From IMG/VR virus record IMGVR_UViG_3300035681_000034, positions 1-46,365 of that record: a DNA stretch of 46,365 nt. One strand, given 5' to 3'. The DNA is from a virus. How positions within the stretch are numbered: the first letter of the stretch is position 1; each line of letters opens with the position of its first letter. Both the position numbers and the translations under genes were made by a program. Of the stretch, positions 3,370 through 6,643 are shown piece by piece. The notes below the pieces were generated by a model. The model saw nothing but the letters and a program-made list of their open reading frames with translations. It was not told the origin of the DNA and did not search any database.

Positions 3370-3533
3370 CACGACAGGAGCTAGTGGACATAATGAAAAG
3401 TATCCCCTTGGACGACGATGACTGGGTACGTCTGTTTATGCGGAAGCTAAACGACGCTTTTCCAGAAATGGCGGCGGGACTAGTGCGACTAGCAGAGGAG
3501 CGATTAAATGACTCAAGTCAACGGCAAGCGTGA
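3366..3533 (+). CDS. Tiny acidic protein, unknown function
   Basis: 55 residues (begins MTRQELVDIM, ends NDSSQRQA). ATG at 3366 overlaps the upstream stop, with a strong site GGAAGGAG just before it. It runs 26 nt into the next gene. Acidic cluster LDDDDW in the middle; no recognisable domain. Overlaps on both sides and a good ribosome site support it as a real, translationally coupled gene, although its 3' overlap with the HNH gene is longer than usual. Confidence 0.6.
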   Translation: MTRQELVDIMKSIPLDDDDWVRLFMRKLNDAFPEMAAGLVRLAEERLNDSSQRQA

Positions 3534-3747
3534 CTACAAGCACGCGTACAAGCTGCAGAAGGCGACCGGAGAGACCGCCGATCAGATCGAGCGCCAACGC
3601 GCACGCAGGGCCTACGACAAGGCTGGTGTGGACCGCGCAGGCAAGGACATCGACCACGTCACACCGCTGCGCAAGGGTGGCAAGAGCACCCCGGGGAACA
3701 CACGCCTGAGAAGCCGCAAAGCAAACCAAGCGGACAACGGCAAGTAA
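3508..3747 (+). CDS. Small HNH nuclease-like protein
   Basis: 79 residues; ATG at 3508 preceded by GAGGAG. The C-terminal half carries an HNH-type core: DIDHVTPLRKGG (about residues 49-60) followed by PGNTRLRSRKANQAD, giving the D-H, N and N positions of the fold. The N-terminal part (KRDYKHAYKLQ) is basic and helical. No zinc CxxC pairs are present. HNH proteins this small in phages are nicking or homing enzymes or packaging-associated nucleases. Here it ends 17 nt before the intein-containing helicase gene, which may or may not be coincidence. Confidence 0.8.
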   Translation: MTQVNGKRDYKHAYKLQKATGETADQIERQRARRAYDKAGVDRAGKDIDHVTPLRKGGKSTPGNTRLRSRKANQADNGK

Positions 3748-3764
3748 AACAACGGAGAAAGCAA

Positions 3765-6209
3765 GTGGAGATATTCGACAACCGCATACTGCTCTTCAAC
3801 ACCCGACACCCGCACCGCTACAGCATCATCCCCAAGCACAAGGTGCTGCCCATCGAGGGTGGCTACCAAGTCGCTGTCTATTGGTCGTTAGATGAGGCTC
3901 GAGTGCTGCGCAATCTGGGCGTGAAGAACGTCCCCTCTCCCATCCAGGGGAGGTATGAGTGGCCTGGGCGCTACCGCCCGATGGACCACCAGAAGGAGAC
4001 CTCCTCCTTCCTCACGTTCAACCGGCGTGCGTTCGTGCTGTCAGAACCCGGGACGGGCAAGACCCTCAGCGCCCTGTGGGCGGCTGACTACCTGATGAAG
4101 CGCGGAGAGGTCAGGCGGTGCCTGATCCTGTGCCCCCTGTCGATCATGCACAGCGCATGGATGCAGGACTTGGGTAACTCCGTCATCCACAGGAGCGCAG
4201 TGGTGGCCCACCACGCACAGGCTGCGCGACGCATCGAGTTGATACAGGAGGACTACGAGTTCGTCATCACGAACTACGAGGGCCTGAACTTGATTGCCAA
4301 TGAGGTGAACAACGACGGGCGTTTCGACCTCGTAATTGTTGATGAGTGTTTTGTGGCGGGCACGTTCGTGGCTACGCCCCTGGGACGACGCCCAATTGAG
4401 CAGCTTCAGCCCGGGGACAGGGTGTTGACTTCTGACGGAATAGCGCCTATAAACCGTCTTGTACGCAATACTGCTACGCGATTGGTGGAGGTCAAACTTG
4501 GAAACGGAAAAGTCATCCGGTGCACCCCTGAGCACCCCTTCTTCACCGACGCAGGGTGGATCTGCGCCAAGAATCTTGCGGGAAGAAGGCTCGTGTCTGG
4601 TGTTGAGTTGTCTTGCCTGCGGGCAGGAATTTCGCCATCTGCGGCACCGAGTGTTGTGGGGTATGGCAAACAACCATCCGATTGGGTTGACTTGCTCGAA
4701 ATCCTGCGCACGGAAGAGATACCACTCTCAGAATCCCGGAGCCAGCTACTTCAACAAAATGTTGCCCGAGCAACGCGGCAGGTCTACGGGTCCGAAAACG
4801 GCGGAGCATCGAGCGAAGCTGTCCGCAACGCTGAAGGCCATCGGTCACAAGCCGAAAGTACGGGGCGGGAACGGCCAGGGTATGACACCAGCCGAGCGGT
4901 TGATTTCCGAGGTCTTGCCTGCGGGGTGGGTATGGAACTACCCAGTAGCGTTGGGCGGGAGGCAACCCGGCTTTCCTACGAACTACAAGCTCGACTTCGC
5001 GTGGCCCGACCGGATGGTGGGGTTGGAAGTGGATGGCAGCAGCCACACGTCACGGGCACGTCAAGAACAGGATCGCAAGAAGGAAGCGAAACTGGCGACG
5101 CTTGGGTGGAAAGTGTTTCGTATATCGAATGCCCAGGCGGCGTCGATGTCTTCAACCTCGAAGTTGAAGGGACACCTAACTACCTTGTTGGGGATCACTG
5201 GGTAGTACACAACTGCAACGCATATAAGAACCCACAAACAAGACGTTGGAAAGCATTGAACTCGATCATCAAGCCAGAGACGTATTTGTGGATGATGACG
5301 GGTACGCCTGCTGCGCAGTCTCCTGTGGATGCGTACGGTCTTGCTCGGCTGGTCAACCCGACCAACGTGCCCAAGTTCTACACGGCGTGGCGCGATCAGG
5401 TGATGCAGAAGATCACCATGTTCAAGTGGGCTCCCAAGCCCGACGCTGCTGACCGGGTCTACGCTGCGCTGCAGCCCGCCATACGCTTCACCAAGGCGCA
5501 GTGCCTGGACCTGCCGCCTGTGCTCACGACCACACGTGAGGTGCCGCTCACCCCACAGCAGGCCAAGTACTACAACCTGCTGCGCGACCAGATGGTGGCG
5601 ATGGCTGCGGGCGAGACGATCACTGCCGTGAACGCAGCAGGCGTGCTCAACAAGCTCCTGCAGATCAGCACCGGGGTGTCCTACACCGACAACCAAGAGG
5701 TGGTCGAGTTCGACGCCACGCCAAGGCTGAACGTCCTGCTCGAGGCGCTGGAGCAGACAGACCGCAAGGTCATCGTGTTCGCGCTCTTCCGCGCTGCCAT
5801 CAGCACCATCAGCGCCTTCCTCACCAAGAACGGTGTGGCCTGCGAGGAGATCCACGGCGGGGTCACGGCGACCAAGCGAGGCGACATCATCAAGCGCTTC
5901 CAGACGCAGCCCAACCCGAGGGTGCTGGTCATGCAGCCCCAGGCCACAGCACACGGCATCACGCTGACTGCTGCGGACACCGTGATCTTCTACGGCCCGC
6001 TGATGAGCGTGGAGCAGTACGTGCAGTGCATCGCCCGGGCCGACCGCAAGGGGCAGAACTCCGACAAGGTCACCGTGATCCACATCGAGGGGTCGCCGGT
6101 CGAGAAGCGCATGTTCAAGGCCCTGTCCAGCAAGGTGGACGACAACGCCCTGCTGGTCAAGCTGTTCGAAGAAGAAATTTCAGGAAGGGGGTTGCCGAAG
6201 CCAGTTTGA
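3765..6209 (+). CDS. SNF2/DEAD-type helicase interrupted by an in-frame intein
   Basis: 814-residue precursor from a GTG start at 3765 (CGGAG at 3753-3757). Helicase motif I is LSEPGTGKT (residues 92-100). Motif II is VIVDE then, after the intein, CNAYKN. Motif III is MTGTPA, motif V QATAHGITLTAADT and motif VI QCIARADRKGQ. This is the two-RecA-domain superfamily 2 layout seen in phage SNF2-like helicases. The intein occupies residues 195-483; splicing would leave a 525-residue enzyme, a normal size for the family. The unspliced protein has its Walker B box physically split, so ATPase activity should depend on splicing. It likely works with the neighbouring polymerase and primase in replication or recombination. 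Confidence 0.94.
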   Translation: MEIFDNRILLFNTRHPHRYSIIPKHKVLPIEGGYQVAVYWSLDEARVLRNLGVKNVPSPIQGRYEWPGRYRPMDHQKETSSFLTFNRRAFVLSEPGTGKTLSALWAADYLMKRGEVRRCLILCPLSIMHSAWMQDLGNSVIHRSAVVAHHAQAARRIELIQEDYEFVITNYEGLNLIANEVNNDGRFDLVIVDECFVAGTFVATPLGRRPIEQLQPGDRVLTSDGIAPINRLVRNTATRLVEVKLGNGKVIRCTPEHPFFTDAGWICAKNLAGRRLVSGVELSCLRAGISPSAAPSVVGYGKQPSDWVDLLEILRTEEIPLSESRSQLLQQNVARATRQVYGSENGGASSEAVRNAEGHRSQAESTGRERPGYDTSRAVDFRGLACGVGMELPSSVGREATRLSYELQARLRVARPDGGVGSGWQQPHVTGTSRTGSQEGSETGDAWVESVSYIECPGGVDVFNLEVEGTPNYLVGDHWVVHNCNAYKNPQTRRWKALNSIIKPETYLWMMTGTPAAQSPVDAYGLARLVNPTNVPKFYTAWRDQVMQKITMFKWAPKPDAADRVYAALQPAIRFTKAQCLDLPPVLTTTREVPLTPQQAKYYNLLRDQMVAMAAGETITAVNAAGVLNKLLQISTGVSYTDNQEVVEFDATPRLNVLLEALEQTDRKVIVFALFRAAISTISAFLTKNGVACEEIHGGVTATKRGDIIKRFQTQPNPRVLVMQPQATAHGITLTAADTVIFYGPLMSVEQYVQCIARADRKGQNSDKVTVIHIEGSPVEKRMFKALSSKVDDNALLVKLFEEEISGRGLPKPV
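4347..5213 (+). mobile_element. Intein in helicase motif II (289 residues)
   Basis: The insertion starts at Cys195 (CFVAGTFVATPLG, block A) directly after VIVDE. Block B is TPEHPFFTDAGW. Block F is VDVFNLEVEGTPNYLV, and block G ends VVHN, followed by extein Cys484. These give Cys1, the block B TxxH, terminal Asn preceded by His, and Cys+1, all that a class 1 intein needs. Splicing domain halves are about 4347-4590 and 5100-5213. The stretch between (about 170 codons in this frame) is Ser/Gly/Arg-rich with no LAGLIDADG, HNH or other motif; its information is in the +1 frame (4600-5205). Confidence 0.95.
4600..5205 (+). CDS. EDxHD (Vsr-like) homing endonuclease nested out of frame inside the intein
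   Basis: 201 residues in the +1 frame relative to the helicase. GTG at 4600 is preferred: GAAGAAGG lies about 10 nt upstream and the predicted protein then begins right at its zinc finger; the frame is open back to a TTG at 4459, but that part overlaps intein block B. Zinc-binding Cys4, Cys7, Cys32 and Cys36 (CLACGQEF, LTCSKSCARKRY); NUMOD3-like linker about residues 62-90 (GPKTAEHRAKLSATLK); nuclease domain 95-180 with Glu99 (PAERLI), Asp132 (YKLDFAWP), Asp145 and His149 (EVDGSSH), Asp158 and LGWKVFRI. This matches the Vsr-like EDxHD homing family typified by I-Bth0305I. It ends 8 nt before the intein ends. Whether it is made as a separate protein is inference. Confidence 0.88.
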   Translation: MLSCLACGQEFRHLRHRVLWGMANNHPIGLTCSKSCARKRYHSQNPGASYFNKMLPEQRGRSTGPKTAEHRAKLSATLKAIGHKPKVRGGNGQGMTPAERLISEVLPAGWVWNYPVALGGRQPGFPTNYKLDFAWPDRMVGLEVDGSSHTSRARQEQDRKKEAKLATLGWKVFRISNAQAASMSSTSKLKGHLTTLLGITG

Positions 6210-6234
6210 CAATGTACAGTGTTGGACACTAACT
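6206..6234 (+). promoter_or_regulatory. Possible promoter with operator-like dyad
   Basis: A perfect -35 hexamer TTGACA at 6206-6211 overlaps the helicase stop; 17 nt on is only a weak -10 (CTAACT, 6229-6234). Between them, 6213-6228 (TGTACAGTGTTGGACA) is an imperfect inverted repeat of the form TGTnCA-N4-TGnACA, which could be an operator. It precedes the strong AGGAG site of the gene at 6251. The weak -10 keeps confidence low. Confidence 0.3.
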
Positions 6235-6250
6235 CAAAAAAGGAGAAAGC

Positions 6251-6643
6251 ATGGAAGACGAATTGCCCGTAGACAGGCTGGTCCGCATCTACATGAAGAT
6301 GCGCTCGGCCATCCAAGACCTCGACGCCCAGATCGAGGCGATCAAGGAGCAGCAACAGTCCGTCAAGAACGAGATCAAGGACCGCATGCGGGGCACGGGG
6401 GTCAAGTCCCTGCGCACCGACCACGGCACCGTCTCGCTGATGGAGAAGACCCGGTACTACACCAACGACTGGGACAGCTTCAAGAAGTTCATGGTGGAAC
6501 ACGACGCGCTCGACCTGCTGGAGAAGCGCATCGCCCAGTCCAACATGAAGTTGTTCTTGGAAGAAAACCCTGGGTCCATTCCCCCAGGTTTGAACTCGGA
6601 CACCGAGTTCGACATCTCTGTAAGAAAACCGTCAACCAAGTGA
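6251..6643 (+). CDS. Coiled-coil phage protein, unknown function
   Basis: 130 residues; ATG at 6251 with AAAAAAGGAG directly upstream. Residues about 10-50 form a heptad-like helix (IYMKMRSAIQDLDAQIEAIK, continuing with KEQQQSVKNEIKDRM), followed by a compact basic/aromatic region (KTRYYTNDWDSFKKFM) and an Asp/Pro-rich tail. Length and layout recall the small helical proteins that phages encode next to their ssDNA-binding protein (Gp157-like in broad architecture), but I cannot assign a family. It lies 10 nt upstream of the putative SSB and is probably cotranscribed with it. Confidence 0.82.
   Translation: MEDELPVDRLVRIYMKMRSAIQDLDAQIEAIKEQQQSVKNEIKDRMRGTGVKSLRTDHGTVSLMEKTRYYTNDWDSFKKFMVEHDALDLLEKRIAQSNMKLFLEENPGSIPPGLNSDTEFDISVRKPSTK

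Follow-up and report, generated by a model that had tools for sequence, protein, structure and literature searches.

A phage helicase intein with an endonuclease gene in its +1 frame

Two reading frames in the helicase intein

The window, that is, the whole 46,365-nucleotide stretch of viral DNA analysed here, encodes on its forward strand an 814-residue helicase whose open reading frame begins at GTG 3765, ends at 6209 and is free of stops throughout (PF00176, 2e-18, and phrog_62, 2.4e-98, for the whole ORF). The N-extein of this SNF2-like phage helicase (3765-4346) extends up to the Walker B residues VIVDE, which directly precede Cys1 of a 289-residue intein (4347-5213). This intein runs from CFVAGT to a terminal HN, and the C-extein that follows (5214-6209; Helicase_C, 7.9e-16) has the +1 cysteine as its first residue (TGC, 5214-5216), so that the predicted spliced product has 525 residues. 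Within the insert, all on the forward strand, frame 0 comprises an N-terminal splicing region with C1 and the block B motif TPEH (4347-4595), a filler (4617-5096) that is open and predicted to be disordered, and a C-terminal splicing region ending in VVHN (5097-5213), which overlaps the C terminus of the nuclease described below. The ORFs and model matches agree with the preliminary description of this DNA in its coordinates, the 525-residue product and the character of the filler. Just upstream of the helicase gene, at 3508-3747, a 79-aa ORF contains an HNH-like DHVTPL motif, recognised by eye, and matches phrog_4590 (function unknown).

Frame 0 was recognised by intein models from two collections. 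Pfam returned Intein_splicing (5e-9) and Hint_2, the latter in the N-terminal splicing region, both above cut-off; NCBIfam returned TIGR01443 above cut-off in the C-terminal region and TIGR01445 in the N-terminal region, at 23.1 bits just below its cut-off of 24.5. The intein residues C1, T60, H63, H288 and N289 are invariant across 27 aligned rows. In an AlphaFold2 model built from 24 aligned sequences, pLDDT (in 10-residue blocks) is 70-95 over residues 1-90 and 80-94 from residue 251 (approximately 251-289), and falls below 50 in the middle, at residues 90-205 and 215-249. The best PDB matches of this model in Foldseek were inteins and intein-like domains, headed by 2lwy (E 5.2e-7) and the gp41-1 intein 6qaz (E 7.4e-6). 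With the signature residues and predicted HINT fold of class 1 inteins, and with an in-frame position at which homologues are intein-free, the insert most probably splices as a protein.

Read at +1, this DNA stays open between TTG 4459 and the stop codon TAG at 5203-5205 and contains a gene, 4600-5205 on the forward strand with a proposed start, for a 201-aa homing endonuclease of the EDxHD/Vsr-like type. The frame has matches to DUF559, which exceeds its cut-off (1.4e-6), and to MTES_1575, which falls short of its own (3.5e-7). Across 32 aligned rows E143, D145, H149 and D158, which we take to be the catalytic residues, are invariant together with C32 and C36, and C4 and C7 are almost so. The AlphaFold2 model of the nuclease has a mean pLDDT of 84.8, and its residues 94-201 resemble both I-Bth0305I (3r3p; Z 10.8, rmsd 3.0, 91 residues aligned) and Vsr (1cw0; Z 10.7), although a mitoribosomal chain (11.2) and a RAP-module chain (10.2) reach similar Z values against the same residues. 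Foldseek ranked 3r3p second (E 2.3e-3) after a mitoribosomal chain, and a sequence comparison with I-Bth0305I gave no match to the nuclease at E 1. It is thus the conserved E, D, H and D, combined with a predicted fold like that of I-Bth0305I and Vsr, that place the +1 product in the EDxHD/Vsr-like group. The two models, whose prediction had been proposed at the outset, are therefore confident for the ends of the intein and not for its middle, and suggest a Vsr-like nuclease. With both frames open, intein models matched in frame 0 and nuclease models at +1, the earlier observation that a homing enzyme lies out of frame within an intein stands. A NUMOD3-like linker, which the preliminary description had also assigned, was not recovered, as no Pfam NUMOD3 model matched at E 0.1.

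Selection on the two frames and the nuclease start

We compared the number of stops in the host frame with a null model in which the nuclease codons were shuffled synonymously. Over 56 clusters of relatives no host-frame stop was observed against 445.5 expected, while the third frame of the same clusters contained 770 stops against 724.1 expected. For the window sequence itself (represented by locus L001), shuffled versions averaged 5.8 host-frame stops, and only 0.15% were stop-free. An open host frame was the criterion by which nesting was recognised; the zero-stop result is nevertheless not due to the selection of loci, because every strong match (defined below) passed that criterion.

Codon-position variation was scored in 30-nt bins for 13 of the 14 distinct close sequences, L014 being omitted because of an indel. 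The third position of the intein frame is the most variable in all nine bins of 4347-4616, and the pattern switches after approximately 4600: 4617-4676 is mixed, and from 4677 to 5096 the nuclease third position is the most variable in 13 of 14 bins (with one tie). At 5097-5213 the intein C blocks dominate, and variation is low at all three positions. As had been predicted, changes thus concentrate at window positions divisible by 3, the third positions of the nuclease, in 13 of the 14 bins of 4677-5096, but not in the mixed and intein-ruled stretches on either side. Values of dN/dS, calculated as ratios of pairwise means from related sequences with some sites near saturation, are 0.10 for the N part of the intein and 0.22 for its C region; over 4600-5127 they are 0.21 in the nuclease frame and 1.01 in the intein frame of the same DNA, which leaves the filler protein nearly unconstrained, and the nuclease tail has a value of 0.73. 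Given these codon-position and dN/dS patterns, the nuclease governs the middle and the intein governs the ends, with the filler mainly staying open. The filler is less variable at 4917-5006 than elsewhere, and to say that it has no job may therefore be too strong. Taken together, stop avoidance, the codon-position switch and the dN/dS pattern uphold two earlier proposals, namely that the open intein frame is itself under selection and that one contiguous intein is held open over a separately framed nuclease gene.

These data also bear on two other readings of the insert. It might be an intron that acts at the RNA level and carries a nuclease ORF, and nucleases of this sort are indeed common in phage introns; the open frame, however, matches intein models and has low dN/dS at both ends, and an Rfam search over 3700-6300 found no intron, its two unrelated matches both lying below gathering scores, and we set this reading aside as highly improbable. 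Alternatively, the nuclease frame could be a decaying fossil, open only through maintenance of the intein frame. Nuclease loss does occur, as demonstrated by L324:2501-2944, a 147-aa mini-intein whose +1 frame has lost the nuclease except for a zinc-finger motif and the C-terminal portion. In the present case, however, dN/dS is far lower in the nuclease frame than in the intein frame that it overlaps, the catalytic residues are invariant in 32 rows, and near-identical relatives with an empty site exist (see below), all of which makes decay very unlikely.

The proposed start of the nuclease is GTG 4600, alternatively TTG 4603. It is preceded by the Shine-Dalgarno-like GGGAAGAAGG (4580-4589, forward strand), in which only AAGG, at a spacing of 10 from GTG 4600, fits the consensus, a modest match; across relatives the enrichment holds, with matches of at least 5 bases in 17 of 54 clusters compared with 5.8% of sham sites (Mann-Whitney p 2.7e-7 for match length at nuclease starts versus sham sites). 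An ATG occurs no more than 25 codons ahead of the first CxxC in 59 of 95 distinct loci; another 32 offer GTG or TTG only and 4 offer none of these, counts that are slightly unsure because L066, L070 and L111 lack the CxxC; in L008 the sole candidate starts are a TTG 11 and an ATG 20 codons ahead of the zinc finger. TTG 4459, where the open +1 frame begins, was rejected as a common start, since six loci (L007, L010, L011, L013, L014 and L015) have stops between this codon and 4600. Independent initiation, as originally suggested, is thus supported by the Shine-Dalgarno enrichment across relatives, and less so by the window, with its GTG or TTG and modest Shine-Dalgarno match; internal initiation is our best guess for this virus.

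Alternatively, ribosomes translating the intein N region could undergo a programmed +1 frameshift, which would yield an intein-nuclease fusion. Consistent with this, in the window no ATG lies a short way ahead of the zinc finger, start codons differ among members of the family, with none in range at the four loci just mentioned, and a conserved patch, CCAAAAATCTT, lies immediately upstream. This patch, together with the low third-position variation at 4557-4586, may leave room for frameshifting or for a regulatory element. The ATG present in range at most of the 95 loci and the enrichment of Shine-Dalgarno matches before nuclease starts argue the other way, and we regard frameshifting as unlikely. 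Upstream of the nuclease start, at 4458-4465, all 14 distinct close sequences share CTTGTACG without variation, in intein codons that are degenerate.

Empty sites, relatives and a second nuclease family

Of the best 80 of 599 helicase relatives, 78 could be scored, and 77 of these have an exact empty site (gap 0); the other, L192, which lies on the same contig as L003, has an 867-nt insert. Among the empty relatives, seven (L154-L160) show 92-97% identity for the N-extein and 95-99% for the C-extein. Relative to one of them, L156, there are 12 mismatches within 150 bases, 9 of which fall at -13 to +12 around the site and include the replacement of GCC (Ala) by TGC (Cys) at the +1 codon; GCC is the +1 codon in four empty relatives. 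In L154, L155, L157 and L160 the differences spread over a wider stretch, and the conversion tract is therefore not sharply bounded. The sequence at the site is DEAN at 76 of 77 motif matches in the helicase relatives. Comparison with L002 gives 87-93% identity for the intein N part, the filler and the nuclease, 41% for the N-extein, and 61% for the C-extein taken together with the last intein residues. The helicase insert is mobile, and these comparisons show its horizontal transfer; cleavage of the empty helicase site by the +1 nuclease would be the expected route.

Relatives were found by searching with the nuclease only, and their surroundings were inspected afterwards. The samples (at least 27 loci; the best 80 of 263; at least 48 bacterial loci; and 6 opened of 41 matching phage records) were pooled to 153 loci, of which 129 exceed 100 bits and 128 remain as strong matches once the window's own copy (L028) is removed. 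The 24 loci below 100 bits (L129-L131 and L133-L153) were excluded; they match mainly the catalytic domain and showed no surrounding intein. Among the matches listed, the nuclease lies at +1 within a longer open host frame in all 128. Of these, 98 are on viral contigs, 24 in bacterial assemblies and 6 in named phage records; around the nuclease stop they amount to 100 distinct sequences, and they form 56 clusters below 60% identity. L001, which agrees with the window at every position across 6615 nt, and L035, on the same contig as L001, are not independent of the window. The bacterial records are mostly metagenome-assembled and may contain phage DNA, while those of Roseicella and Azospirillum carry no such label. 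A sequencing or assembly frameshift, with the nuclease really in the helicase frame, is hardly credible; nothing was found in its favour, and it was ruled out by the common +1 offset, which is the same in 128 of 128 loci, including the six named phage records; moreover, the host frame continues into the intein C blocks and C-extein. The arrangement had initially been viewed as an intermediate between in-frame and split designs. This view finds no support in the EDxHD family, in which none of the 128 is in frame and none is split, and because all are nested at +1 the arrangement looks like a lasting, recurrent one.

The intein immediately follows DE in 121 of the 126 loci scored, with two further loci lacking an intein-N match. 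The +1 residue was scored as Cys or Ser in 124 of 126, with the scoring pattern having chosen the wrong end in at least L033 and L034 and probably L071. Pfam found helicase domains in the host genes of five of six loci scanned (weakly in L126) and nothing at all in L123; further hosts are DnaX (L124) and a helicase-methylase fusion (L073), and for L341, L360 and L328 Pfam gave intein models only. In the fusion (L073:614-4783) two intein-like regions are seen, the first with the +1 nuclease. In another locus, L023:1299-2582, upstream of the dual-frame intein, appears by eye to be a second intein, placed at the P-loop of the helicase that holds the dual-frame one and bearing LAGLIDADG-like motifs in frame. 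Among phage records matched by the EDxHD family at E 1e-5, the only actinobacteriophage is phi673 (two records). In the 8 named phage records inspected that have a nested nuclease, the annotation over it is that of the host gene only, and annotation therefore tends to miss such nucleases.

A search with the intein-N profile gave 80 loci, many on contigs already in the first EDxHD sample: 65 have an EDxHD nuclease or a fragment of one at +1 (fragments in L324 and L347), 13 have an HNH nuclease at +2, and two are cut-off contigs. In L325, L327, L328, L330, L337 and L351 the intein sits at a site that is not DE, and its +1 nuclease is divergent (55-105 bits).

The second family consists of HNH_3 nucleases with zinc fingers (L341:2501-3470 and L364-L443; Pfam HNH_3 in the two scanned), nested at +2 or, in some cases, lying between split intein halves. 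In the best 80 of 490 loci, 55 are nested at +2 and 25 are not nested, and no HNH was found at +1 or in frame with the intein. An intein-N match is present in the host ORF of 53 of the 55 (far from the HNH in L432 and L435; L387 and L426 lack one). Over 42 clusters of this family, 1 host-frame stop was observed against 80.3 expected, with single-cluster p <= 0.05 in 18. Both intein halves were matched in separate ORFs, some weakly, in nine of the 25 non-nested loci (L392, L398, L401-L404, L408, L413 and L414; eight inspected), which appear to be split inteins with the same HNH nuclease as the nested loci; L424 has only the N half and L416 only the C half. It is in this family, as judged from sequence, that a link to split inteins appears. 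Among named phages, TJE1 and Highwayman carry the HNH at +2 within a CDS annotated as large terminase, and BP10 has it freestanding.

Relation to known systems and interpretation

In canonical inteins the splicing domain is fused in frame with a homing endonuclease. As in these, splicing domain and homing nuclease here belong to a single mobile element that occupies a conserved site; unlike in these, the nuclease lies in another frame, +1 in 128 of 128 loci, and therefore outside the intein polypeptide. Fractured genes, reportedly described by Dassa et al. in 2009, are said to have split inteins with a freestanding nuclease, in some cases EDxHD, between the halves. They share with our locus a nuclease separate from the splicing domain, but here the intein is contiguous and the host ORF open over 3765-6209, rather than two ORFs with the nuclease between them. 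Kinship with gp41-1-type fractured genes was considered and rejected: none of 50 fetched loci convincingly matches the nuclease (best E > 1), the nuclease looked GIY-YIG-like by eye in three of these loci, and no homology is claimed. I-Bth0305I, an EDxHD enzyme that shares the predicted catalytic fold, is intron-associated, whereas the nuclease described here sits inside an intein in another frame.

The closest published case is the ShiLan insertion, an out-of-frame HNH nuclease for which no splicing domain was found (PMC11855218). The two systems have in common an open host frame, a homing-type nuclease in another frame and a patchy distribution; they differ in that intein models and a predicted intein fold are present here, with splicing blocks flanking an EDxHD nuclease, while our second family places an HNH inside intein blocks. 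For overlapping frames, the ShiLan paper cites a preprint that deals with non-canonical intein architectures in actinobacteriophages and may already report out-of-frame nucleases in inteins. A genome announcement reportedly describes an out-of-frame HNH in a methylase (PMC12613952). No close reports beyond PMC11855218 and PMC12613952 were found in the literature searched, a scope outside which most subscription papers and bioRxiv fall, and absence from print is not claimed.

We propose, with a probability of about 0.9, that the locus is a mobile dual-frame intein. Translation of frame 0 would give a single 814-aa precursor, in which the two ends of the 289-aa insert would form the intein domain and splice out, so that Walker B of the helicase is restored. 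This mRNA would also be read at +1, most likely by ribosomes starting within the intein coding region near 4600, to give a separate 201-aa zinc-finger EDxHD/Vsr-like nuclease. This nuclease would cut intein-free helicase genes where they encode the DE(x)H box; the repair that follows would bring in the whole insert with a few flanking bases, which would supply the Cys+1 that splicing requires. Little or no structural job would fall to the middle of the intein frame, where selection would chiefly remove stops.

On balance, we also lean towards a broader view, in which dual-frame inteins are a general and old class of mobile element with the nuclease overprinted on a contiguous intein linker. 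This class would have at least two origins, EDxHD at +1, mostly at helicase Walker B motifs and once in a clamp loader, and HNH at +2, in terminases where annotated, and would extend across phages and assemblies of many bacterial phyla. Nuclease expression would be uncoupled from splicing, and loss of linker openness could yield natural split inteins. An intein and a homing nuclease can thus share DNA in two frames, with neither a single polypeptide nor a physical split being needed. This makes testable the uncoupling of homing and splicing, the persistence of overlapping genes under a constraint that is mostly to stay open, and one possible origin of natural split inteins.
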